In this document: one piece after another, positions 18,276 to 63,767 of the stretch
Position numbering within the stretch: position 1 is the stretch's first letter
Layout: each line of letters starts with the position of its first letter
Origin: a virus
Direction: 5' to 3' (one strand)
IMG/VR virus record: IMGVR_UViG_3300022752_004330
Coordinates: 49,690 to 113,689 of that record
Length of the DNA: 64,000 nucleotides
Made by a program: the position numbers and the translations under genes
The notes under the pieces: model-generated
Database searches by the model: none
What the model was told of the DNA's origin: nothing
What the model saw: the letters and a program-made list of their open reading frames with translations, nothing else

Positions 18276-18283
18276 TATTTATG
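18276..18283 (-). promoter_or_regulatory. late-promoter-like CATAAATA
   Basis: Seven bases before the ATG at 18268, overlapping the end of the bilin reductase gene. The match is one base from the T4-like late consensus. Confidence 0.4.
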
Positions 18284-18950
18284 CTGTTTCCGGAAAGAGA
18301 ATTTCGTCTACAAACTGCTTAATTATAGATTCTTGTACACCCATAGCTATCATACTTTTTATGACTTGTGGATTTTGTTTTTGGTAATAACAATAACGAT
18401 CCTGTGCCATGTGAAAATCTGCACCACAGGTCTGTGTAAGGCCTACATTAGCTAGATAGAAATCTAGTGATTTTTTAGCAGTTTCACATAACAAATCAAT
18501 TTCTTTTTCATCACTGATATTACCTGCTGCTATCATTGAAGGACTAAAAATTTGTCTAGCCCAATCCGGTAGTGTTCTAGGTTTAGTCCATTCTAAAGAT
18601 TCTACGTGTTTTGTGAACCACAACATCATGTCATGATTTCTATCCCCAGCTGCGCTAAAATCATGAAAGGCTCCTGTGATTTTATTACGGCCGCATATAA
18701 CATCAAATCCCCAAATAGGACTAGGATCGTTGTAATGTGGGAATATTGTAGAATGTAAAATGTAGATTCCATGCGAATCACGCTTGTCTACTATTTCTAT
18801 GTGTGCTCTACGATATCTTAGACTAGACCAAAGTGTATTTTCCCAATCGTAATTTTCGTTGAGTTTACCCTCTATTGCATCACCTGTGTCGTTAAATCTC
18901 TTTTCTAAATATCGTGCTAATTCTTCAATTTTGTTCCAAATCACTGTCAT
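18279..18950 (-). CDS. ferredoxin-dependent bilin reductase (PcyA/PcyX/PebS family)
   Basis: The 223-residue protein has the family core: LHSTIFPHYNDPSPIWGFDV (65-84) followed by GRNKITGAFHDFS, matching the central strands of PcyA and PebS; Asp83 sits at the catalytic Asp (Asp105 of PcyA). The end, QDRYCYYQKQNPQVIKSM then EILFP, matches the family's YCxYQxxN and FLF pattern. These enzymes reduce biliverdin with electrons from ferredoxin. Which product is made (phycocyanobilin, phycoerythrobilin or another) cannot be read by eye. GAGGG lies 6 bp before the ATG. It overlaps the heme oxygenase gene by 26 bp, so substrate maker and user are coupled. Confidence 0.88.
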   Translation of the reverse strand: MTVIWNKIEELARYLEKRFNDTGDAIEGKLNENYDWENTLWSSLRYRRAHIEIVDKRDSHGIYILHSTIFPHYNDPSPIWGFDVICGRNKITGAFHDFSAAGDRNHDMMLWFTKHVESLEWTKPRTLPDWARQIFSPSMIAAGNISDEKEIDLLCETAKKSLDFYLANVGLTQTCGADFHMAQDRYCYYQKQNPQVIKSMIAMGVQESIIKQFVDEILFPETA

Positions 18951-19467
18951 AGACCCTCATCATTTTTATTGCCCAGTCAAAGGCTGTGTTTGCTTCGTCT
19001 GCAAGACTGTCATCTAATTTGGCTCTAAGATTTGTCATAAGTTCTTTAGGATTATCAAATTCTAAACTAAGGTGAGATCCCGGTACAATACGTTTAATTG
19101 CCTGACCTCCAAACATATCTCCCATATGCCACGTATATAAATGTGCTAGAATCTTTCTAGCATTGTGTTGAATTGATTTGATATAATCATGGTATGCAAT
19201 AGTGGTAGGACGTATTTCGTATACTTTTAAATCACTATTATTAGCATTAAAATCTTGAGCCAGAGCAGGTGCTCTAGTTATTCCTCTAAGATCTTCTAAT
19301 AGCAAATTTTTTAGAGCGGCAGTTTCTATTGTATTGTAGAAAATTGCCTTTTGATATGTCCAGTCGGTCCACAAAGTTAAAGGCAGGGTCCTTGCGAACA
19401 CTGCCTTCATAAACGATGTAGACTCTGCTTCTTTGTGCTTATCAGCAGTTAAATCCTTTAGAGCCAT
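18925..19467 (-). CDS. ho1: heme oxygenase (HO-1 type)
   Basis: A 180-residue heme oxygenase: LTADKHKEAE (6-15) holds the proximal heme-ligand His11, and HLYTWHMGDMFGGQAIKR (109-126) carries the distal-helix glycines (GDxxGGQ) over the heme. It opens heme to biliverdin, CO and iron. Length is close to the bacterial norm of about 200. It overlaps the bilin reductase downstream and lies 8 bp after clpS, in a run hsp20-clpS-ho1-reductase starting at the sigma70-type promoter at 20322-20350. Iron release, CO or pigment production could each be the benefit; the reductase next door favours making a reduced bilin. Confidence 0.9.
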   Translation of the reverse strand: MALKDLTADKHKEAESTSFMKAVFARTLPLTLWTDWTYQKAIFYNTIETAALKNLLLEDLRGITRAPALAQDFNANNSDLKVYEIRPTTIAYHDYIKSIQHNARKILAHLYTWHMGDMFGGQAIKRIVPGSHLSLEFDNPKELMTNLRAKLDDSLADEANTAFDWAIKMMRVYDSDLEQN

Positions 19468-19475
19468 TTAGTTTC

Positions 19476-19784
19476 TCATTCTGGTTCTATCTTAATTACC
19501 AAAGGAAAGTTATTTGCTCTGGCAAGATTGGATGCATCTTGTTCTTTTTGCTCGGCAATTTCAAAGGGATAAATCCCTGCTACTCCGCTGCCTGAATGAT
19601 GAACTTCCATAGTTATTTGCATGGCTCTATCTTGTGTATGCCTAAACACAGTTATAAGAACACTGACAACGAACTCCATTGGCGTGACATCATCGTTACA
19701 AAAAATAACTTTAAATTTACCAGGTTCTTTAATTTTGTCAATTTGTTTTGCTTTTTTTACAACTTTTTCTGTAATAGGTTCCAT
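19476..19784 (-). CDS. clpS: ClpS, Clp protease adaptor
   Basis: The 102-residue protein matches ClpS along its length: CNDDVTPMEFVVSVL (29-43) gives the NDD-TPMEFV strand and helix that bind N-degrons, and MEVHHSGSGVAGIYPFEIAE (59-78) holds the HHxGxG turn. ClpS steers N-end-rule substrates to ClpA and restrains ClpA from taking ssrA-tagged proteins. Here it lies between hsp20 and ho1. With the phage ClpX (32991-34229) and tmRNA it could shift host Clp proteolysis toward ClpX; that link is inference. No clpP or clpA is in the window. Confidence 0.92.
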   Translation of the reverse strand: MEPITEKVVKKAKQIDKIKEPGKFKVIFCNDDVTPMEFVVSVLITVFRHTQDRAMQITMEVHHSGSGVAGIYPFEIAEQKEQDASNLARANNFPLVIKIEPE

Positions 19785-19802
19785 AGATTTTATCCAGGTA
19801 AT

Positions 19803-19825
19803 AGTGGGGGGCGATATCCCCCACT
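19803..19825 (-). terminator. hairpin after hsp20
   Basis: An 8-bp G/C-rich stem (19803-19810 with 19818-19825) with a 7-nt loop, in the 54-bp gap between hsp20 and clpS. There is no U-run, so it is more likely an attenuator or stabiliser than a strong terminator. Confidence 0.5.
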
Positions 19826-19838
19826 AATATTTAACACA

Positions 19839-20264
19839 TCAGTTAATATTAATAATTCTAGGTTTTAAAGATTCTGGAATTTGTCTATTAACCTGAATGG
19901 TTAGGATACCATCTTTACAAGTGGCTTCTCCCACAATCATATGTGCTTCAAGAGTGAAAACTCTTTCGAAATCTCTAGTAGCTAACCCTCTATGTAGATA
20001 TTGTTTGCTATCAGTTTCTTCTTCTTTTTTCTTTCCAATAATACTTAATTGGTCTTGATCTACTTGGATAGTAATATCTTCTTTGTTGAACCCTGCAATG
20101 GCAATTTCAATTAAAAAAGTGTCATTTTCAGTTTTACAAATATTATACGGGGGATAGTTACTGGCAGAATGTTGCCAACGATTTTCAAAATCGTTAAAAA
20201 TTCTATCGAACCCGATAAGTGCTTTGTTAAAAGCATTTGTGTCAATACGCATTAATTGTGTCAT
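19839..20264 (-). CDS. hsp20: Hsp20-family small heat-shock chaperone (IbpA-like)
   Basis: The 141-residue protein has an N-terminal helix (FDRIFNDFENRW), then an alpha-crystallin domain (about 36-130) with YNICK, EIAIAGFNKEDI, LSIIGKK, LHRGLATRDFERVF and a CKDGILTIQV strand, close to E. coli IbpA/B. It holds unfolding proteins for refolding, probably by DnaK. Its leader has a consensus promoter (20322-20350) and a hairpin pairing TCTTGCTT with the AAGGAGA ribosome-binding site around a bulged G, as in ROSE thermometers. DnaK lies directly upstream. Confidence 0.92.
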   Translation of the reverse strand: MTQLMRIDTNAFNKALIGFDRIFNDFENRWQHSASNYPPYNICKTENDTFLIEIAIAGFNKEDITIQVDQDQLSIIGKKKEEETDSKQYLHRGLATRDFERVFTLEAHMIVGEATCKDGILTIQVNRQIPESLKPRIININ

Positions 20265-32771: not shown

Positions 32772-33010
32772 TACATTTTTTTGGGTAATTGCTGGTCTCT
32801 TAATTTTTTTTGCCAACGAGCTTTGGCTGCACCAGCTTTACGTTTTCTAGTGGTTGTTGGTTTTTCATAAAACATTTTCTCTCTCAAAGTTTCCAGAATT
32901 CGCGAATCATCTACCTTTTGTTTAAATTTTTTAAGGGCGAGATTTAAGGGCATATCTCCTACAATGATTTTGTTCCCATTTATAATTTTTTTAGTGTTTT
33001 TGTTGTTCAT
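32768..33010 (-). CDS. rpsU: ribosomal protein bS21
   Basis: The 80-residue protein reads as bS21: MPLNLALKKFKQKVDDSRIL, then REKMFYEKPTTTRKRKAGAA, and a basic tail ending KKMY. bS21 sits at the 30S platform by the anti-Shine-Dalgarno and helps initiation. Several huge phages carry bS21, thought to bias host ribosomes to phage messages. Start at 33010, overlapping the end of clpX by 20 bp; the longer upstream frame lacks family similarity. It shares clpX's operon. Confidence 0.93.
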   Translation of the reverse strand: MNNKNTKKIINGNKIIVGDMPLNLALKKFKQKVDDSRILETLREKMFYEKPTTTRKRKAGAAKARWQKKLRDQQLPKKMY

Positions 33011-34229
33011 TTTTCTTTTTTTCAAAAATAAGCACAGCAGGTTTACCATCAATACATTCTTTGGTTATTCTTAAAGATCTAACACCTTGTTGTTTTAAAT
33101 CCACAGCATCATATTGGTATGGTAATAAAGTTTTTTCTATTATGGTTTTGAGTCCTCTAGCATTGGTCTGTAGTGTCTTTGCTTTTTTGGCGATTTCTAA
33201 TAGACTGTCTTTATCGAACTCTAAATTTAATCCATCTAACTGAAACATATATTGATATTGTTTAACATAACTATTTTTTGTTTTTGTTAGAATGTCCACT
33301 AGCTGGTTTTCATTAAGTTCTTCAACATTAACTATCAACCCGAATCTGCCAATGAACTCCGGAATAAAACCATATTTAATTAAATCTTTAGTTGTAACGT
33401 CATTATAAAGTTTATTTGACTCACTTTCTGAATTTATTTTTGCATTAAACCCAATTGTCCTGGCTTCTTTTCTTAATTGTATTATTTTCTCTAAACCAAC
33501 AAATGCACCGCCACAAATAAACAATATTCCTCTGGTATCTATCTCCTGCATGTCTCCGTCTGGATGTTTTCTTTTTCCAGAAACAGGAACCCTTATTATA
33601 GCACCCTCTATCATTTTTAATAGGGCTTGTTGTACTCCTTCACCGCTAACATCTCGTGTGATACTTACGTTTTCATTCTTTTTAGCTATTTTGTCAATTT
33701 CATCTATATAAACTATTCCTCTACTTGCTTTGGCTATATCGCCGTTACTTTCGTTTATTAGTCTTATTAAAATACTTTCAACATCGTCGCCTACATATCC
33801 AGCTTCTGTTAAACCAGTGGCATCACAAATTGCAAATGGCAAATCTAAATATTCTGCTATCTTTCTAGCCATCATGGTTTTACCACAACCAGTTGGTCCT
33901 AACATAAGAACATTAGTTTTTTCTAAATCTATTTCTTTACTGGGATTGTTGATTCGTTTGTAATGTTGACTGACAGCTACACTTAATCCTATTTTAGCGT
34001 AGTCTTGTCCAATTACGTATTCGTCTAAATATTCTTTAATCTTTACAGGATTCAATAATTTATCTGGGTGTTCTTCTATTTCTTTTTCGTTTTCATCGGA
34101 TAATATATTGACACATAGATCTATACAATCATTGCAAATAGCGGCATTTTCGCCTACAATTAGTTTTTCAACTTCTTCTTTGGTCTTTTCACAAAAGTCA
34201 CATCTGTGCCTCGTTTCTATTTTGGCCAT
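32991..34229 (-). CDS. clpX: ClpX, AAA+ unfoldase
   Basis: A full-length ClpX of 412 residues. The N-terminal zinc domain has Cys10, Cys13, Cys32 and Cys35. Walker A is GPTGCGKT (111-118, Cys for the usual Ser), Walker B VYIDEID, pore loop GYVG (144-147), RKH loop (220-222) and the IGF ClpP-docking tripeptide (259-261). All parts for substrate grip and ClpP binding are therefore present, so it should load the host ClpP. ATG at 34229 with AGAAGG upstream; a TTG one codon earlier is unlikely. It is third in the 35000-32768 operon. Confidence 0.96.
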   Translation of the reverse strand: MAKIETRHRCDFCEKTKEEVEKLIVGENAAICNDCIDLCVNILSDENEKEIEEHPDKLLNPVKIKEYLDEYVIGQDYAKIGLSVAVSQHYKRINNPSKEIDLEKTNVLMLGPTGCGKTMMARKIAEYLDLPFAICDATGLTEAGYVGDDVESILIRLINESNGDIAKASRGIVYIDEIDKIAKKNENVSITRDVSGEGVQQALLKMIEGAIIRVPVSGKRKHPDGDMQEIDTRGILFICGGAFVGLEKIIQLRKEARTIGFNAKINSESESNKLYNDVTTKDLIKYGFIPEFIGRFGLIVNVEELNENQLVDILTKTKNSYVKQYQYMFQLDGLNLEFDKDSLLEIAKKAKTLQTNARGLKTIIEKTLLPYQYDAVDLKQQGVRSLRITKECIDGKPAVLIFEKKKNEQQKH

Positions 34230-37164: not shown

Positions 37165-37680
37165 TTAATTAGCCAAAACCTTAGAAACGGCATTTATAAC
37201 AGACGAAATTCGACCAATATCACGAAGTTGTTCTACTGTATAGCCTTGCTTTTTCAATGTGTCATAATGAGCTTTAACGCAGAAATGACACTTACCAACA
37301 ATACTTGCGGCAAGGCTATAGGCTTCAAATCTAGCCTTAGTTGAGCCGCCATGAGTAGCTATTGCGTTCATACGTAATTGTGCTGGAAGTCCTTTGAGAT
37401 TTTCATCTTCTGCCATTTCTACGTATGGATACCAAACATTATTCATAGCCATTAAACTTGCCGCGGTGATGGCAGCATCGGCTTCTTTACGATCTGTGAT
37501 TTGAGCATGTACCCAAGTCCAGAACTTACTATTACCTGTAGCAAAAGCCGCGGCCACTGCTACGGCTTCTGCTTCTTCTACAGGTAGACTACTACGCTTG
37601 ATAACTGCGTCTAAGTTAAGACGAATATCTTTAGCATAGTCTGGAATAGTTTCTTTTAATTGATCTACCCATTGTGTCAT
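37165..37680 (-). CDS. ahpD: AhpD-like alkylhydroperoxidase, 171 aa
   Basis: The CxxC-x3-H site, GKCHFCVKAH (Cys131, Cys134, His138), and Glu119 upstream match AhpD of Mycobacterium (Glu118, Cys130, Cys133, His137). AhpD reduces AhpC and detoxifies hydroperoxides. It overlaps the SGNH gene by 4 bp, which in turn is coupled to ahpC, so ahpC-SGNH-ahpD form one unit. Confidence 0.92.
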   Translation of the reverse strand: MTQWVDQLKETIPDYAKDIRLNLDAVIKRSSLPVEEAEAVAVAAAFATGNSKFWTWVHAQITDRKEADAAITAASLMAMNNVWYPYVEMAEDENLKGLPAQLRMNAIATHGGSTKARFEAYSLAASIVGKCHFCVKAHYDTLKKQGYTVEQLRDIGRISSVINAVSKVLAN

Positions 37681-38087
37681 CTTGATTTCTCCGATAATTC
37701 TTTATAACCTGCCCAACTTGGATGTATTGCGTCTGATTGTAGTTTTTGTGTTTTTATAATAAAATCTCCGCGGGTTTTTGCTATAGATTCTACTATTTTA
37801 TTGATGTCAGGCTTACAAAATTTGTCATTACAAGGGGGTAAAATCCAATAAACACGATCAGCATTAATTCTACTTCTTATAGATTCAAGTTCCTGTTTCG
37901 TTTGAACTCCCTTGTGATCATTAGTTCCTAGACTGATAACTACACTACGTGCTGTGAGATCGCTATCGATAAACTTACGATTCCATTGCCAAGTGTTGAA
38001 TCCACCCACACTTATACTTTTACATTCCTTGCGTTCATTGGCTACACCAACAGCAATACTATCACCTAGTATAAGGCAGTCTAACAT
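37677..38087 (-). CDS. SGNH/GDSL-type hydrolase, 136 aa
   Basis: LGDSIAVG (Ser10), GGFNTW, SLGTNDHK (Asn56) and SDAIHPSWAGY (Asp119, His122) are the SGNH blocks with a full Ser-Asp-His triad. At 136 residues it is very compact. No signal peptide. It lies between ahpC and ahpD with ATGA/TAATG overlaps on both sides, an odd neighbour for peroxidase genes. Its ester substrate is unknown. Confidence 0.85.
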   Translation of the reverse strand: MLDCLILGDSIAVGVANERKECKSISVGGFNTWQWNRKFIDSDLTARSVVISLGTNDHKGVQTKQELESIRSRINADRVYWILPPCNDKFCKPDINKIVESIAKTRGDFIIKTQKLQSDAIHPSWAGYKELSEKSR

Positions 38088-38647
38088 TATAGAGTTTCCC
38101 CACCTATGCTGCGATTACAAGCACAGAGCTCGCCAGTTTGAAGTGCGTCTAATACACGCAGTGTTTCTTCAGGGCTACGACCTACATTAAGATTGTTTAC
38201 TGTTACATGTTGAATAACATTATCAGGATCGATAATAAATGTAGCACGTAGAGCAGCGCCTGCCGGTGCATAAAATACGCCTAGTTGTTCGATAAGACTA
38301 ACATGACCTCTTTCCTCACCAGGACCATGGCGTGCCGTATCGGCGAATTGAATGTGTGTAATTTTTTGTAGATCTGGATGTGCCTTTTGCCATGCTACTT
38401 TACAGAATTCGTTGTCTGTGGAACCTGTTAACAATACAGCATCACGATCTTCAAAGTCTTTGGCTAATTTATCATAGGCTACAATTTCTGTAGGGCAAAC
38501 AAATGTAAAATCTTTTGGATAATACACTACCACCTTCCACTTACCTGCGAATGACTCGTCTGTAATTGTAAAGAAAGCATCTTCAGGTTGTCCTGGCTTA
38601 ACACCAGTAATTGCAAATTTTGTAACTTTATCGCCAACTGTTTTCAT
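38087..38647 (-). CDS. ahpC: AhpC-type 2-Cys peroxiredoxin
   Basis: The 186-residue protein carries FTFVCPTEI (peroxidatic Cys51) and the C-terminal ELCACNRS (two resolving Cys), the same CxC end as the AhpC that partners AhpD in actinobacteria. ATG at 38647 follows AAAGGAG. It removes hydrogen peroxide and organic peroxides, plausibly protecting ribonucleotide reductase and phage DNA. It is coupled to the SGNH gene (TAATG) and is next to the tmRNA terminator. Confidence 0.95.
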   Translation of the reverse strand: MKTVGDKVTKFAITGVKPGQPEDAFFTITDESFAGKWKVVVYYPKDFTFVCPTEIVAYDKLAKDFEDRDAVLLTGSTDNEFCKVAWQKAHPDLQKITHIQFADTARHGPGEERGHVSLIEQLGVFYAPAGAALRATFIIDPDNVIQHVTVNNLNVGRSPEETLRVLDALQTGELCACNRSIGGETL

Positions 38648-38783
38648 TTTGATCTCCTTTTTGTGTGTGTTGAAAACTAAACAATATTGTATATTGTACA
38701 TTTATTTACAATAGAAATCTACTATAAATTTAAGTTTTTTAATGAATTTTTTTAATAAGGTTAATAGATAATATTAATAGAAA

Positions 38784-38805
38784 AATAGGGCCCTAAGGCC
38801 CTATT
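38784..38805 (-). terminator. terminator after tmRNA
   Basis: AATAGGGCC/GGCCCTATT, 9 bp, loop of 4, followed by TTTC on the minus strand. It ends the tmRNA transcript. Confidence 0.75.
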
Positions 38806-38814
38806 GGTTTGTTG

Positions 38815-39055
38815 GCTTACAAGGTCTTTCCTACCCCGCGGAGGTTACGCCGCTAGGCGAACTTCTCCGAAGTAATCGTCATTTGCGATTATTTGCTTTG
38901 CTAGAATTACGTTCTTCGCCTATCGTGTTGTCCACTCTGTTACTCTTTGCCCTGTCGAAAACCATAGTCACCCCCACCTAAACATACCTCAATACATTTA
39001 GGTGGAGATGGCCGGAGTCGAACCGGCGTCCAGAACACCTTTCTCTTTGCTTCAT
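38815..39055 (-). ncRNA. ssrA: circularly permuted (two-piece) tmRNA
   Basis: On the minus strand the acceptor piece comes first: the T-arm (39011-39027) then the acceptor 3' strand (39001-39010). A short loop (about 38979-39000) joins it to the acceptor 5' strand GGTGGGGGTG (38969-38978) and the D-like arm (38951-38968). The tag frame 38848-38886 encodes ANDDYFGEVRLAA, stop TAA at 38845. The preceding AAATAATC is like the resume context of one-piece tmRNA. The 3' CCA is not encoded. It releases stalled ribosomes and tags nascent chains; the LAA end is a ClpX degron. The outer ends are approximate. Confidence 0.88.
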
Positions 39056-39066
39056 ACAACAATATC

Positions 39067-39261
39067 TTACTTCTTTGGTTCTAATAAATTAAAATGTCTA
39101 CGTATAACAGGAGTAGCGGGCAGATTAACCTGCCACGCTGTATCTGCTATTTCAGCACATTCTTCTGCTATCATTTCTGCAAAAAGTTCTATGCTTTCTG
39201 AGTATTCTACTCCTGCACGATCTGCTATTGCTTTAAGTCTAGCATTAACTGCTGTATACAT
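39067..39261 (-). CDS. small protein with Tyr-Ser/Glu-Cys motif, 64 aa
   Basis: RLKAIADRAGVEYSESIELF then AEMIAEECAEIAD resembles a short helical motif common in phage proteins, there of unknown role. AGGTAAG precedes the ATG at 39261, which overlaps the stop of a possible 29-codon ORF. It lies just upstream of the tmRNA and may share its transcript. Confidence 0.6.
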   Translation of the reverse strand: MYTAVNARLKAIADRAGVEYSESIELFAEMIAEECAEIADTAWQVNLPATPVIRRHFNLLEPKK

Positions 39262-41701: not shown

Positions 41702-42222
41702 TATTCTTCTTCTTCCTTCGGTGGTTTATCACATAGAGCTTCTAGAGTTTTGTAGTGTTGGTATGCTTTTTTCAGTGCTTCATAATGAGCTAGTTTTTCT
41801 GGGTCTGGTACAAGAATAGATAATCTACGTTCTATGGTTTCTAACATTTCACCAAGGCTACGACCTTTCCATTTAATATCGCCATCAATTTCTGCATCAC
41901 CATTTACCTTTAGAGTAGATTGACCGGTCCCACCACTTCCCCATGAATAAGTAGGCCCGGTATTGCTGATTGTAATATTTCCTGCGCTGTAAGGCATGGC
42001 GCTAATTTGCTGTGTGGTCAAAGGCTGCAAAGAGGGCCAATTTCCGTAATTATTATAAGTAGTATTAGCTGTAGATGACATCTCATTATTATAACTTATA
42101 TCTATATCTTTTATAAGATCATCTAAATTCAATGTAGATATCTTAGTTAGACTTAAATTATCAAGGTTTATGTCAGAGTCGTGGTCTGCTGAAATTATAA
42201 AGTTATCCCTGTTATCATCCAT
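41701..42222 (-). CDS. conserved T4-like virion-associated protein, 173 aa
   Basis: It has a disordered acidic start, a Gly/Ser/Thr stretch, then LKVNGDAEIDGDIKWKG followed by SLGEMLETIERRLSILVPD and a helical end. This ordered pattern is shared by conserved phage proteins of unknown function in T4-like phages. It ends in an acidic EEEE run. An 8-bp overlap links it to the glutaredoxin gene. Confidence 0.72.
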   Translation of the reverse strand: MDDNRDNFIISADHDSDINLDNLSLTKISTLNLDDLIKDIDISYNNEMSSTANTTYNNYGNWPSLQPLTTQQISAMPYSAGNITISNTGPTYSWGSGGTGQSTLKVNGDAEIDGDIKWKGRSLGEMLETIERRLSILVPDPEKLAHYEALKKAYQHYKTLEALCDKPPKEEEE

Positions 42223-42439
42223 TCAAGTTCTCCTTGAGTTCAGTAAAGCCTCCGATTAATTTGCCATCAAGAAAGATCTGTGGAACTGTTTTTGCCAAGG
42301 GTACTGCTTCTAATAAATCTTCTTTAGTCCATCCGTCGCCGATTTTTCTTTCTTCAAATTCAATGCCCCTTTGCTTTAACAGGGCTTTAGCTTGGTCACA
42401 GTACGGACAATGATATTTACTCCAGATGATTGCTTTCAT
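42215..42439 (-). CDS. grx: glutaredoxin, 74 aa
   Basis: CPYC (11-14) redox site, TVPQIFLDG (cis-Pro) and GGFTEL glutathione-binding region are all present. It supplies electrons to ribonucleotide reductase NrdAB encoded just upstream, a standard T4-like phage pairing. ATG follows nrdB by 8 bp. Confidence 0.95.
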   Translation of the reverse strand: MKAIIWSKYHCPYCDQAKALLKQRGIEFEERKIGDGWTKEDLLEAVPLAKTVPQIFLDGKLIGGFTELKENLNG

Positions 42440-42447
42440 GTTTCTCC

Positions 42448-43551
42448 TTATAGATCTGGAAGATCAGCGTAATGAACTACATCACTCATAATACCTATAA
42501 CATAATTTGTGCTTTCATTTTCTTGTAACGCTGTTTGTTTCTTGTTTATATTTACATGTTTATTGAACCAGGGTATTGGATTTGTTTTAGGATGATCTTC
42601 TACATATTTTATATTGATATCTTTCAGTTTCATAAAGGCTGTATAATCTACGAAATCTCTTAAAATTCCTGCATTTAATCCAATTACTACTCCCTTGCTA
42701 AACAGGTACTCTGCCCAGGTTTTTTCTTCTCTAATGACATCCAAATACATCTTGTATACTTCTTGTTCACATTCCTGTTTGGCCTGTCCGAATCTTTCAT
42801 CTTCTTTTACCACTTGGTTTATGATCCAAGCGGTCCATTCTGCATGTAGAATTTCATCTTGTAGAATTAATGCTATGATATTGCCGTTGCCAATAAAGAT
42901 TTTATTCTCTACCATGGCTAGGCTTGTAGCAAAAGATACCATAAAGCGAAATGCTTCTAATGCATAGCTAGCATTCAGTGCTAGCCAGATAGCCTTGACA
43001 TGTTCTTTTTCGTTAACTGATTCTGGATTTACTTCTTTTAAACTATTGAGTCTATGAAGGTTATCATAATAATCACCAACACTGCTTGCCATGTCAACAA
43101 TTTCTTTAGTGTCGTGTATCTTGTTAAATTCTTCTTTTGGAACTCCATAAACATTACGTATAATATGACTATAACTTTTGCTATGAATATTGGTTTCGAA
43201 AAAACTCCAATTACTTACTAATGCTTCGAGCTCAGGTATACTTATGACCGGACTAAACACTTGGCCAGGGGCTCTACCTTGAATACTGTCCAACGCAGTT
43301 TGGCGCAGTAGATTACTTGTAAAGATATGTTTTACAGCGTCGGTAGCATCTTTCATATCTATTTTATCTTTGGTCAGAGAAATTTCCTCAGGCACCCAAA
43401 AAAAACCTCTGGCCAATGCTTCGAAATTTTGTAGTTTAGGATATTTTACTTCTTCAAATCTTTGTACTGTAACTGGCCCTTCGGAATCTAAAAACATTTT
43501 TCTTTTTAAATAATTAGGGCGTTTGGAAATATCATATTGTGCTTTGCTCAT
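42448..43551 (-). CDS. nrdB: ribonucleotide reductase class Ia beta subunit
   Basis: The 367-residue R2 has the diiron site: Asp88 in ALDSIQGR, Glu119 and His123 in FFETNIHS, Tyr127 (radical), then YALEAFRF and LQDEILHAEW. It is E. coli-like. One oddity: Glu119 and His123 are four apart instead of three (one extra Asn). The start at 43551 has AAAAGGAG. It makes the tyrosyl radical for NrdA to supply dNTPs in the operon nrdA-nrdB-grx. Confidence 0.96.
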   Translation of the reverse strand: MSKAQYDISKRPNYLKRKMFLDSEGPVTVQRFEEVKYPKLQNFEALARGFFWVPEEISLTKDKIDMKDATDAVKHIFTSNLLRQTALDSIQGRAPGQVFSPVISIPELEALVSNWSFFETNIHSKSYSHIIRNVYGVPKEEFNKIHDTKEIVDMASSVGDYYDNLHRLNSLKEVNPESVNEKEHVKAIWLALNASYALEAFRFMVSFATSLAMVENKIFIGNGNIIALILQDEILHAEWTAWIINQVVKEDERFGQAKQECEQEVYKMYLDVIREEKTWAEYLFSKGVVIGLNAGILRDFVDYTAFMKLKDINIKYVEDHPKTNPIPWFNKHVNINKKQTALQENESTNYVIGIMSDVVHYADLPDL

Positions 43552-43574
43552 CAGTGTGTCTCCTTTTTTATTTC

Positions 43575-45926
43575 CTACAACTTGCACGATTCACAATCTT
43601 CTACATCGTAATTCTCATATAGTACTATGTTATCGGCTGCTGATATAAAATTATTACTCATATAATTTGTGGTATTAGTATTGGTAACATTTGCTTTGGC
43701 TCCGATCTTATTGATAAGGCTGTAATAGATTGTCTTTATACCCCATTTATAAGCGAGCATTAAATTTTTGGCAATCAGTGTTCCTGGAACTTTACCGTCT
43801 TGAAAATATGCCGGATTATAAAATGTATTAGTAGAAAGACTTTGATCTATATACACAGCCAAGACTGCTGCTGTTTTTAGATAACCTAGACAATCTTTTT
43901 GGTCCCACATGAGCTGATATCTATTCTTTAATCTTTTATATTCTGGAACCACTTGGACAAAACTTCCTGCCTTGCTTTCTTTTACAGAAATTAGTTCCAT
44001 TGGCATCTCAATACCATTGGTTGAATTCAATACTACTGAACTACTTTCAACCGGAGCTACTGCCATTAATGTACCATTGCGAATACCATATTGCTTTATT
44101 TTTTCACGTAAAGACTCCCAATCCATACTGGGGGTGAAATCAGTTAATTCATTAACTCCCTGAGCTCTGCGTTCCCAGGGAAATATACCTTTACCATAGT
44201 AGGTATAAGATGACCGCTTACATGGGCCACGTTCTTGTGCTAGTTCAACACTGGTTTCTGTAAGATAGTATGCCTGATGCTCCATCCATCGTTTGACTTC
44301 TGCTAGACTATCTTTCTCACCGTATTTTAAATTACGTCTAGCGTGCCAATAGGCAAGATTGGTTATGCCTACTCCTAATGGTTCAAAGTCTTTGTTGGCC
44401 AATTCGCTTTGTATACTAAGAAAATCTTGATAGTTAAGTAAGTTACTTAATGAGCGGACCAATACCCTACAGGCTTTGCGCATATCCTGAGGATTACGGA
44501 AGGCACCCCAGTTGATCGACCCAAGAGTGCAAAGAGCAATTCGTCCATTAGGATCTTCAATTCTTTGGAAAGGCTTCGTGGGTAGTAATATCTCTTGGCA
44601 TAGATTGGACTGATATATCGGATCAATGCTTGTATCAAACGGTCCCTGTTGGATAACGTTGTCGATATTGACCAAATAAATTCTACCCGTATCAGTACGT
44701 TCTTTAAGGATACCATTTTTGAATATTTCATCTGCCGGTAATACTTTTTTCTTTTTTGTCTTATCTTGTTCATAGCGCAGATAAAGTCTTTCAAATTCGT
44801 TTGAGTCTCTATAGTATGCTTCATATAAATCCGGTACTTCGTGAGGATCAAACAAGGTTATCATTTCATTGTGTTTGTACCTGCGCCAAAACATCGCATT
44901 TACCACCACACTGTAATCCATTTGTCGAACTCGCGTTTCTTCAGTTCCCTGATTGTTCTTAAGTACAATGAGGTCTTCAAACTGATAATGCCATATGGGA
45001 AATGTCACTGTACAACTTGCGTTACGGATACCACCTTGACTACATGATCGCAGGTCACTAAACCATTTTTTCAAAAATGGTATCATGCCTGTATGTTTAA
45101 TTTCTCCGTTTCGTATAGGAGAACCTAGTGGTCTAATACGTCCAATCTCTAAACCAATGCCTGCACGTTTGCTGGCATACTTGGCCATCATTTCGCCAGC
45201 AGCGAATATGCTATCAAGGGTATCATCGCTACTGATAAGAACGCAACTACTGAACTGTTTAGTAGTAGTGCCAAGCCCAGCAAGCACAGGGGTGGCAAGA
45301 GTGAAATGACCATCTGAAGCGCACTCATAGTAATCCTTAACGTACTTTAATCTCTTATCTTTAGCCTCGGCATGAAAAGCAGTGGCCGCTGCTATGGCAT
45401 AACGTACCTGTGGTGTTTCATAAATTTTTCCTGTACTGCGATTCTGTACCAAATACTTTTCGCAAAGTTGTGCTATGGCAGCATAGGTATAATTTTCGTC
45501 CTTGCTGTGATCTATGAATAGTTCGATAATCTTCCATTCTTCCTCTGTATACCACTCTACTAGTTCTTTTGTATACATTCCTAATTGAACATTGTTCTTT
45601 ATGATATCATAAAGAGGTATAGGATCATATTCTCCATAGACTTCTTTTCTTAACATGCTGAGTCTTTGGCGACCTGCGACATATTGGTAATTTACATTAT
45701 TATATTCTGGGTTTTCACTTTCATCTATAAGGCCGACCATGGCCTGCAATAGCAGTTCATCAATAGTACTTGTTGTTATTCCATCATGTAGTTCTAACTG
45801 TGCTCGTAGCTCAATCATACTTGGACTCACACCATCTATTCCTCTACAACATAGTGCTACTTGTCTTTGTATCTTACTAATGTCAAGAGGAACGCGAGTT
45901 CCATTACGTTTCACTACTGTAATCAT
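43575..45926 (-). CDS. nrdA: ribonucleotide reductase class Ia alpha subunit
   Basis: The 783-residue protein opens with an ATP-cone (VVKRNGTRVPLD), then RAGIGLEIGRIRPLGSPIR, SNLCQEILLPT (catalytic Cys and Glu), ESSSVVLNSTNGIE (phosphate loop and radical relay region), and ends CESCKL, the redox-relay Cys pair that glutaredoxin reduces. The ATP-cone implies dATP control. It makes deoxynucleotides from host ribonucleotides. AAAGGGT precedes the ATG. Confidence 0.97.
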   Translation of the reverse strand: MITVVKRNGTRVPLDISKIQRQVALCCRGIDGVSPSMIELRAQLELHDGITTSTIDELLLQAMVGLIDESENPEYNNVNYQYVAGRQRLSMLRKEVYGEYDPIPLYDIIKNNVQLGMYTKELVEWYTEEEWKIIELFIDHSKDENYTYAAIAQLCEKYLVQNRSTGKIYETPQVRYAIAAATAFHAEAKDKRLKYVKDYYECASDGHFTLATPVLAGLGTTTKQFSSCVLISSDDTLDSIFAAGEMMAKYASKRAGIGLEIGRIRPLGSPIRNGEIKHTGMIPFLKKWFSDLRSCSQGGIRNASCTVTFPIWHYQFEDLIVLKNNQGTEETRVRQMDYSVVVNAMFWRRYKHNEMITLFDPHEVPDLYEAYYRDSNEFERLYLRYEQDKTKKKKVLPADEIFKNGILKERTDTGRIYLVNIDNVIQQGPFDTSIDPIYQSNLCQEILLPTKPFQRIEDPNGRIALCTLGSINWGAFRNPQDMRKACRVLVRSLSNLLNYQDFLSIQSELANKDFEPLGVGITNLAYWHARRNLKYGEKDSLAEVKRWMEHQAYYLTETSVELAQERGPCKRSSYTYYGKGIFPWERRAQGVNELTDFTPSMDWESLREKIKQYGIRNGTLMAVAPVESSSVVLNSTNGIEMPMELISVKESKAGSFVQVVPEYKRLKNRYQLMWDQKDCLGYLKTAAVLAVYIDQSLSTNTFYNPAYFQDGKVPGTLIAKNLMLAYKWGIKTIYYSLINKIGAKANVTNTNTTNYMSNNFISAADNIVLYENYDVEDCESCKL

Positions 45927-59244: not shown

Positions 59245-61458
59245 ATGATTACAGAGACCGAGAATATGTCTAACAATCCGCACATCAGCGATGTGATCAA
59301 AGAAATGTTAGGCAACCCAAATCGCCGAAGTTTCCTAAAAGGAAGTTCGGCTTTTTTTACGGCCGCAGCAGGTGCTACTTTGGCCAGTTGTGCCAGTGGG
59401 GATGATGATCAATTCACTCGTCCAACAGCCTTAACTTTCCAAGCAGTCCCCAAGAATACAGCAGATAAGATCACACTGCCACCGGGTTATCAATTCACCG
59501 TGCTACATGCTACCGGTGACAGACTCAATGCTTCTATATCAGCCTACTCAAACAAAGGCGCAGAAACAGATGACTGGTCCGCTCGTATCGGTGATCACCA
59601 TGATGGAACAGAACTATTTCACATTGATGCCAGTGGAAAATATACTAAAAATATGACCGACCGTGCCATATTATGTGTAAATCATGAAAGTTCAGCAGAC
59701 GCACATTTCTTCCATCCTAACGGACAGACCAGTAATGGTGTGAATGGTAAGAAGTATGATCAATTTGGTCAGTGGGATCTGGGCACAAGACCTGCTCTGG
59801 AAGCACTGAAAGAAATGAATCATCATGGTGTAAGTATTGTAGAGATCAACAAAGGCAGCGCAGGTTGGGCAGTAAAGTTAGACAGCGCCTACAACCGCAG
59901 AGTAAATGCCCAGACTGTGGCTCGTGTTGCAGGTCCAGCAGCAGAGTTGGCCAATATCAAGGCCCTGCTGGCTACCAAGTATGATCCCACAGGTGCTACT
60001 GCTCGTGGCACACTAAACAACTGCGGAACAGGATATACTCCATGGGGCACATTCCTAACCTGTGAAGAAAACTGGGCCACATATTTTGCCATGCCCAAGG
60101 GCAGTGCTGCTCCAGATGCTCGCATGACACAAACACGTAGTCGTTATGGTGTGCGTAATGTGCCATATGCTGCCACTGCTACCACAGGTAATTCACAAGG
60201 ATGGCACACAGTTACAGATCAGCCAGATACTAATTTTAGATTTAGTCGTTGGGATGTCAGCATCAAAGGTGCTACTGAAAAAGACGACTTCCGGAACGAA
60301 CCACAGACCTTCGGTTACATTGTAGAGATCGATCCTACCCAGCCAAACAGCCAGCCTGTTAAACGAGTGGCCATGGGAAGGACGGCTCACGAAGCCTGTG
60401 TGTTCGGCCGCCTGGAAGCAGGCAAGCCAGTGACATTTTATATGGGCTGTGACAGTCGCAATGAATACATTTACAAGTGGGTCAGCACCAAGACTTGGGA
60501 TCCTGCTGATGTTGGTGGTGGCACAGCCGCTGGTGACAAATATCTCAACGATGGTAAATTGTATGTGGCCAAATTTGCTGCCGATGGTACAGGCATGTGG
60601 ATAGAATTAAGTATCACTAATCCTGCTATTGCCAACTATGCTACTTTCAAGTTTAACAATCAAGCAGAAGTATATGTATTCACTCGTTTGGCAGCAGACG
60701 CAGTAGGTGCTACCAAGATGGATCGTCCAGAGTGGGGTGCTGTGAATCCGCTAAATGGTGAAGTCTATTTCGCACTGACTAACAACTCAGCAAGTAATCG
60801 CACACCAATGACTACTGATGCTGCTAACCCAAGAAGTTATGCTGATCCTGATGGCTTGGTTAGAACAGGCAATCCTAACGGTCATATCATTCGCTGGCGT
60901 GAAGGCACAACAGGTTTAGTATTCCAATGGGATATCTTTGTGTTTGGTTCAGAAGAAGATAATGCTGCCAGCAATATTTCTAAATTGACAGCCAATAATT
61001 CATTCAGTAGCCCAGACGGTTTATGGTTTAGCAAGGCCACAGGCCTGTGCTGGATTCAGACTGACGACGGTGCCTACACTGATGAAGTTCATAATCAATT
61101 GTTAGTGGCTATTCCTGGTCAGGTTGGAGATGGTGGTGCTAAGACTATTACCAACACACTGAGCGGTGCTACTAAGGATCAGGCCACATTTGTTGGTGCT
61201 GAATTAGGTGAGACCAAATTGCGTAGGTTTATGACAGGACCGGCAGGTTGTGAAATCACTGGTATTGCCGAATCAGCAGATGGTCGTGCTATATTTGTTG
61301 GAGTTCAACATCCAGGCGAAGATACCACTGCGGCTTTTTGGACAGGCACTGCTCCACAAAGTCAATGGCCAGGTAATGCTGGTTATGGAACAGCAGGTCG
61401 CCCACGATCAGCAACAATTGTTATCACAAGAGTTGACGGCGGCCTAATAGGCGTCTAA
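59245..61458 (+). CDS. phoX: PhoX-type alkaline phosphatase (Tat lipoprotein)
   Basis: The 737-residue protein has a Tat motif NRRSFLKGSS (26-35) and a lipobox ending at Cys49, and the DUF839/PhoX body: DDWSARIGDHHDG, VNHESSADAHFFH, GVSIVEIN, TCEENWATYFA, HEACVFGRLE and EEDNAASNISK. Conserved Glu, His and Cys side chains bind the Ca/Fe centre. It releases phosphate from organic phosphates at the periplasm or surface. AGGAG 7 bp before the ATG; the Pho-box-like repeat upstream and pstS downstream make a phosphate-starvation unit. Confidence 0.93.
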   Translation: MITETENMSNNPHISDVIKEMLGNPNRRSFLKGSSAFFTAAAGATLASCASGDDDQFTRPTALTFQAVPKNTADKITLPPGYQFTVLHATGDRLNASISAYSNKGAETDDWSARIGDHHDGTELFHIDASGKYTKNMTDRAILCVNHESSADAHFFHPNGQTSNGVNGKKYDQFGQWDLGTRPALEALKEMNHHGVSIVEINKGSAGWAVKLDSAYNRRVNAQTVARVAGPAAELANIKALLATKYDPTGATARGTLNNCGTGYTPWGTFLTCEENWATYFAMPKGSAAPDARMTQTRSRYGVRNVPYAATATTGNSQGWHTVTDQPDTNFRFSRWDVSIKGATEKDDFRNEPQTFGYIVEIDPTQPNSQPVKRVAMGRTAHEACVFGRLEAGKPVTFYMGCDSRNEYIYKWVSTKTWDPADVGGGTAAGDKYLNDGKLYVAKFAADGTGMWIELSITNPAIANYATFKFNNQAEVYVFTRLAADAVGATKMDRPEWGAVNPLNGEVYFALTNNSASNRTPMTTDAANPRSYADPDGLVRTGNPNGHIIRWREGTTGLVFQWDIFVFGSEEDNAASNISKLTANNSFSSPDGLWFSKATGLCWIQTDDGAYTDEVHNQLLVAIPGQVGDGGAKTITNTLSGATKDQATFVGAELGETKLRRFMTGPAGCEITGIAESADGRAIFVGVQHPGEDTTAAFWTGTAPQSQWPGNAGYGTAGRPRSATIVITRVDGGLIGV

Positions 61459-62987: not shown

Positions 62988-63767
62988 ATGGAGCGTACCT
63001 ATAACAGTATTTTTATCAGCGACACGCACCTTGGCAGCAAAGGCTGTCAAGCAGATATTCTCAATAATTTTCTCAAACATAATACCTGCCATCAACTGTA
63101 TCTTATAGGTGATATCATAGATGGATGGAAAATACAGCAGAACAAGTGGCGTTGGAACCAAAGCCATACCAATGTGGTTCGCCGAATACTGGGACATGCC
63201 AAAAGAGATACCAAAGTAGTTTATATAGCAGGCAATCATGATGAATTTCTAAGACCCATGATACCCTATAACATGACCTTTGGTCGTATTGAGATAGCCA
63301 ATCAATGCGAACATCGGGGAATAGATGGTAAGAAATATTTGGTCATACATGGTGATCTCTTTGATGGTATAACAAGACTGGCACCGTGGATCAGTTTTTT
63401 AGGAGACAAGGCCTATGACCTACTACTCATATTCAATACTGCCTTTAATCGCTGGAGGCATAGATTTGGATTCGGCTATTGGAGTCTTAGCCAGTTTCTT
63501 AAACAGCGTGTCAAGCGGGCTGTGGATTTTATTTTTCATTTTGAGCGTAATCTTGCTGACTATGGCCGTAAGCGTGGTTTTGACGGAGTCATCTGCGGAC
63601 ACATCCACAAACCAGAAATCAAAACCATAGATGAATTTGTCTATATGAATGATGGCGACTGGGTTGAATCATGCAGTGCTCTTGTTGAGCATCATGACGG
63701 GCGTTGGGAAATCATATATTGGAACCGGGGCAAAGATGATGTGGATCTTATTCCTCATAGTGGTTAA
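62988..63767 (+). CDS. LpxH-like UDP-diacylglucosamine pyrophosphatase family
   Basis: The calcineurin-like motifs SDTHLGS (Asp12, His14), IGDIIDGW (Asp42), AGNHDE (Asn83, His84), IHGDLFD (His121) and GHIHKP are in order, and the length (259) and SDTHLGSKGC start match the LpxH/LpxH2-type branch. LpxH makes lipid X in lipid A synthesis; a phage copy could change LPS. It could also be another UDP-sugar or phosphoester enzyme. Confidence 0.78.
   Translation: MERTYNSIFISDTHLGSKGCQADILNNFLKHNTCHQLYLIGDIIDGWKIQQNKWRWNQSHTNVVRRILGHAKRDTKVVYIAGNHDEFLRPMIPYNMTFGRIEIANQCEHRGIDGKKYLVIHGDLFDGITRLAPWISFLGDKAYDLLLIFNTAFNRWRHRFGFGYWSLSQFLKQRVKRAVDFIFHFERNLADYGRKRGFDGVICGHIHKPEIKTIDEFVYMNDGDWVESCSALVEHHDGRWEIIYWNRGKDDVDLIPHSG

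Follow-up and report, generated by a model that had tools for sequence, protein, structure and literature searches.

tmRNA is an RNA that releases stuck ribosomes and marks unfinished proteins for destruction, and the viral DNA analysed here bears on why phages carry it. The window, by which we mean the whole stretch of 64,000 nucleotides (bases 49690-113689 of a 113,689-base viral contig), contains a permuted tmRNA gene on the minus strand that runs from 39061 to about 38806 and is structurally intact in all parts tested. We regard the virus, a large freshwater phage, as T4-like because its large ribonucleotide reductase subunit has 62% identity to the counterpart of Xanthomonas phage X1 and T4-like cyanophages have counterparts of one of its virion proteins at about 42% identity.

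A sequence-only reading had described the locus as a circularly permuted phage tmRNA with an LAA-ending tag, and this description was right. In the covariance-model comparison that it had proposed, both permuted-type Rfam models scored over the cut-off, RF04321 (tmRNA_permuted) with 126.4 bits (E 2.6e-24) and RF01850 (beta_tmRNA), the best-scoring type, with 123.8 bits against a cut-off of 84 (E 3e-37). ARAGORN independently called a tmRNA with the tag ANDDYFGEVRLAA. The alphaproteobacterial type was ruled out, as it reached 38.5 bits against a cut-off of 50, and the cyanobacterial permuted type, which received no separate score, did not come out as the top model of its clan when the window was searched with Rfam. 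A chance match or an artefact was ruled out by the covariance-model E-values together with the fold of the whole precursor (z = -4.1).

The gene is slightly longer than the 38815-39055 given previously, and the acceptor piece indeed comes before the coding piece. All the following parts lie on the minus strand. The first piece in gene order (39001..39061), placed by model matches and pairing, is the tRNA-like 3' part and consists of an interpiece strand TGTTGT (39061-39056), a T arm GCCGG-TTCGACT-CCGGC (39027-39011), the acceptor 3' strand CATCTCC (39010-39004) and an encoded A-C-C (39003-39001). The next base is T; the gene lacks the last A of CCA, as do several bacterial permuted copies. A spacer of 25 bases (38976..39000) follows, which is expected to be removed on processing. 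The second piece (38806..38975, its exact 3' end being approximate) comprises the acceptor 5' strand GGGGGTG (38975-38969), a D-loop-like region, the interpiece strand ACAACA (38931-38926), the pseudoknot PK1, the tag frame and a 3' domain in whose alignment to the RF01850 model several pairs are non-standard. The terminator that had been read from the letters corresponds to an intrinsic-terminator-like hairpin followed by a T-run (38784..38805).

The pairing of the acceptor strands across the short loop was confirmed: CATCTCC and GGGGGTG pair at 7/7 positions, G3-U70 included, and the helix runs on into the spacer, where ACCTAAA (39003-38997) and TTTAGGT (38982-38976) continue the acceptor stem. 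On RNA folding, the acceptor and spacer pairing formed one long hairpin. G3-U70 is the alanine identity pair, and it was present with all seven acceptor pairs in the window and in every relative examined. We infer that a two-piece mature RNA would be produced by processing of this spacer-closed precursor. The order of the pieces, acceptor, T arm, form of PK1, spacer helix and resume-codon context are all like those of the betaproteobacterial permuted tmRNA (RF01850/RF04321).

The earlier description had been made to depend on the tmRNA pseudoknots, and for PK1, where this was examined, the pairs were found to form. PK1 (38900..38925, minus strand) is located upstream of the resume codon; in stem 1, CG 38925-38924 pairs with CG 38911-38910, and in stem 2, GC 38919-38918 pairs with GC 38901-38900 and AGA 38915-38913 with UCU 38905-38903. 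Pairing was present in 100% of 168 cells (24 distinct sequences) versus 79.8% in shuffles, with two-sided changes in 7/7 tested pairs and a collapse of pairing when the partner strand was slid, and since the structure was drawn from these same sequences before counting and the count was limited to rows that have the common short PK1, we regard this covariation as strong support and not as a blind test.

These features suggest that the locus is most likely a functional phage-resident ssrA of the betaproteobacterial permuted type, which would serve rescue and tagging with host SmpB and then ClpXP. Host tRNA-processing enzymes would cut the transcript into two pieces held together by base pairing, the A that CCA lacks would be added, and alanine charging would follow. 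With host SmpB, the phage tmRNA would then rescue ribosomes stalled during infection, and the unfinished proteins would be tagged with ANDDYFGEVRLAA and passed to ClpXP, perhaps by way of the phage ClpX and host ClpP. The benefit to the phage would be that ribosomes are kept available and amino acids recycled while messages are degraded. An action on stalled translation, which had already been proposed for this gene, is plausible. SmpB was not found in the contig, which may be incomplete, and host SmpB is expected to be used; huge phages are known to carry both tmRNA and SmpB (PMC7162821). In one bacterial locus (L104), we noted an smpB-like frame near the permuted tmRNA, and the permuted tmRNA of L104, like that of L158, has the unusual T-loop sequence GGGGGCGGTACCC.

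The tag reading frame (38845..38886, minus strand) starts at the resume codon GCA (38886), encodes ANDDYFGEVRLAA and ends at the stop TAA (38845), so that the tag with a TAA stop in the sequence-only reading agrees with the ARAGORN call. The tag has 13 residues with a hydrophobic end and closes in VRLAA. It is unlike the ANDExFALAA-like tags of the sampled bacteria, of which the credible ones have 10-12 residues with the exception of one odd call (L176); a long tag call for the bacterial L147 was rejected as a misreading of an ordinary tag. Phage tags of the betaproteobacterial type have 9-31 residues and varied endings (RLAA, LMVA, SMAA, ALAV), and 20 or more residues are found in 16/66 distinct tags, one of which (that of L010) results from a deletion and is unlikely to be a genuine tag. 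L010 and L005 represent the same phage locus; L010 has lost the last part of its tag frame through a deletion, which may be natural variation or a mistake in the assembly. Tags of 25-31 residues occur in related phages (L283, L351, L347, L005, L325, L341, L206 and others). These long tags mostly start alike with A(N/K)A.TF, for example ANADTF(D/E)(F/Y), and many end as a classical tag. The tag codons of L283 differ from those of L347 by 7 synonymous and 2 replacement changes (dN 0.05, dS 0.49), and because replacements are few, the long tag peptides appear to be constrained at the protein level. It suggests that the long tags of the relatives are translated. For the window's own tag, there was no close homologue on which constraint could be measured.

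ClpX is the protein-unfolding machine that recognises tmRNA-type tags, for which LAA is the usual ending, and the window encodes a full-length ClpX homologue (32991..34229, minus strand; E 1e-121 to solved ClpX). The Cys4 zinc finger, Walker A and B, GYVG, RKH, IGF, arginine finger and sensor 2 motifs are all present. GYVG and RKH contribute to the recognition of the SsrA tag and IGF to ClpP docking. The tag-recognition, ATPase and ClpP-docking motifs are therefore intact, from which unfolding and docking are predicted. In its full length and in its zinc finger, GYVG, RKH and IGF motifs, the protein is like bacterial ClpX, but it is phage-encoded, and ClpP was not seen among the contig proteins scanned, which were a part of all its proteins. 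Such a ClpX was found in 13/45 viral records, the 12 other records having 44-73% identity to that of the window. We rejected the co-occurrence of ClpX and tmRNA as evidence of a module, since there was no enrichment: tmRNA was present in 10/12 clear ClpX carriers versus 27/32 records without ClpX, the thirteenth carrier, with a sub-threshold tmRNA match at a contig edge, being left out of the 12. As the carriers show no excess of tmRNA, we propose the link between ClpX and tmRNA from biochemistry and not from co-occurrence.

The tag and the ClpX bear on a refinement of the functional explanation, rather than a full alternative to it, in which the phage tag replaces the host tag and reroutes proteins to the phage ClpX or past host adaptors. 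The difference of the phage tag from the sampled bacterial ones, the variation of phage tags in length and ending while nearly all credible bacterial tags keep to 10-12 residues, and the contig's own ClpX would agree with this, and phage pf16 has been reported to encode an SspB-like adaptor (PMC5587285). The window tag, however, still ends in LAA, and ClpX is not enriched with tmRNA across the 45 records; we therefore consider such retargeting conceivable but doubtful.

Upstream of the tmRNA and on the same strand are nrdA (43575-45926), nrdB (42448-43587) and a glutaredoxin gene (42215-42439), and the order nrdA, nrdB, glutaredoxin, a 97-residue protein and tmRNA on one strand is found in the window and in several relatives. 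The same order was seen where viral contigs carry a tmRNA of another type (tags ADAELVAA, ANAFKPEV...). The position of the tmRNA downstream of nrdA-nrdB-glutaredoxin is conserved across diverged phages. A 64-aa reading frame (39067..39261, minus strand) ends about 6 bases upstream of the tmRNA, and a shared transcript is therefore likely. No promoter-like site was found close upstream of the tmRNA on the minus strand, and the sequence also suggests, as an alternative to a shared transcript, a promoter inside the 64-aa frame.

Directly downstream is a peroxiredoxin gene (38087-38701), followed by a GDSL-hydrolase-like gene (a weak match below the cut-off) and a CMD-family gene (37165..38701 in all, minus strand). 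The same order stands beside the tmRNA in L005 and L010, and the downstream peroxiredoxin is common to L005, L010 and L011. This peroxiredoxin has at least 586 relatives, with close ones in hundreds of viral contigs and only distant ones in isolated phage records; being common in viral contigs, it is uninformative on the host. Elsewhere, the window encodes a ferredoxin-dependent bilin reductase and a heme oxygenase (18279-20264) near an Hsp20-like gene, which together are most familiar from cyanophages. A PhoX-type alkaline phosphatase (59245-61458, E 9e-123) with a calcineurin-like phosphoesterase nearby (62988-63767) was also observed, and a role of the two in phosphate acquisition is possible.

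The sequence-only reading had added that the gene could be host-derived, and a recently captured host tmRNA gene, kept as a passive passenger or relic, was accordingly considered. The tmRNA is of the betaproteobacterial type, and a Gram-negative porin of the Porin_4 family in the same contig (window 35125-36144) hints that the host may be betaproteobacterial. Bacterial copies of the type do exist: among copies sampled from one class, one order and two families, they were found in 15/41 genomes from the family to which a Rhodocyclaceae MAG belongs, where they score 160-305 bits versus 123.8 for the window. They differ from the window gene, which is phage-borne, has a 13-residue tag ending in VRLAA and falls in a viral set.

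Relatives were gathered by pattern scans of viral contigs and from the neighbours of NrdB and peroxiredoxin, which yielded many further permuted tmRNAs. A permuted tmRNA over the cut-off was present in 37/45 viral records of at least 60 kb. Of the 45, 22 had been chosen for having it; among the other 23, picked by NrdB or peroxiredoxin and showing no tmRNA beside that gene, it was present in 15. Permuted tmRNAs were also found in isolate phages of Stenotrophomonas, Xanthomonas, Alcaligenes and Acinetobacter. The hosts of most such isolate phages are Gammaproteobacteria, which to our knowledge carry a one-piece tmRNA.

In the better-behaved tree, the window falls within a 36-member all-viral set (support 99/95) and its closest rows are viral (path 0.23-0.32); a first tree, which included four long or badly cut rows, was much less resolved. 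Grouping the window with the Rhodocyclaceae-type copies was rejected (p 0.019), as was grouping it with the L169/L171/L172 group (p 0.004), in tests on about 150 columns with groups named after the tree was seen and about 900 genomes and records searched. Bacteria and phages as two sides were not rejected (p 0.49), and with about 150 columns the tree did not resolve the deeper branches that join phage and bacterial copies. The all-viral set and the rejected bacterial groupings make recent capture from a host improbable, and the intact state of every structural part tested and the conserved position across diverged phages also argue against it. As a recent capture, the suggested host origin is not supported against the bacteria sampled; an older origin from a bacterium is conceivable. 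In similarity searches, the 5' half of the tmRNA was closest to L073/L042, while the tag and 3' half resembled other phage copies more (L203, L079 and L086, for example); a mosaic origin, with possible recombination between the two parts, is suggested.

Mycobacteriophage DS6A has a tmRNA of little beyond the tRNA-like domain, and strong inhibition of tmRNA has been reported for a molecule like it (PMC4131195). That the RNA of the window is a decoy whose binding of SmpB blocks host trans-translation, as proposed for DS6A, seems highly improbable, since the DS6A form has no tag frame whereas the tag frame, stop codon and PK1 of the window are intact and conserved in relatives whose long tags are constrained at the protein level.

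We return to the functional reading of the gene. It draws on the intact tRNA-like domain, G3-U70, PK1, resume codon, tag frame, spacer helix and terminator-like hairpin, on the conservation of the permuted tmRNA and its position in related phages, and on the constrained long tags of relatives together with a motif-intact ClpX in the same contig. Against it we counted the lack of SmpB in the contig, of a ClpX co-occurrence excess and of a close upstream promoter-like site.

Permuted phage tmRNAs are already published, and the window gene adds one more with new surroundings. In a previous survey, 53/133 unique phage tmRNA structures were two-piece, and possible roles were discussed (PMC9004378). 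Phage Melnitz and its relatives, described in the same paper, likewise have a permuted ssrA in a T4-like aquatic phage; the Melnitz ssrA, however, shows alphaproteobacterial kinship and is associated with a glutamine riboswitch, whereas the window gene belongs to the betaproteobacterial type and the Rfam search of the window gave no riboswitch family above threshold. Stenotrophomonas phage Marzo, also T4-like, has a permuted tmRNA of the betaproteobacterial class close to nrdA, but it is located in a tRNA cluster upstream of nrdA and its tag ends in VRIAA. The genome announcement of Marzo noted the betaproteobacterial-class tmRNA and did not mention the permutation (PMC8928761). In the open-access literature, we found no report of a ribonucleotide-reductase-linked tmRNA position, of an all-viral set of the betaproteobacterial type, of long tags under constraint or of a phage tmRNA accompanied by a phage ClpX.

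A group of phages in which a permuted tmRNA is common, holds a conserved place and is sometimes accompanied by a phage ClpX offers a defined system for asking whether phages keep their own ribosome rescue or redirect degradation, and the long constrained tags of the relatives are candidate new degradation signals. It is rather unlikely, on present evidence, that T4-like phages of aquatic habitats have a tag-and-degrade pathway of their own, with a phage-lineage permuted tmRNA and phage-specific tags, at times very long and constrained as protein, that are read in some of these phages by a phage ClpX docking on host ClpP. If this were true, the phage itself would decide the destruction route of unfinished proteins during infection.
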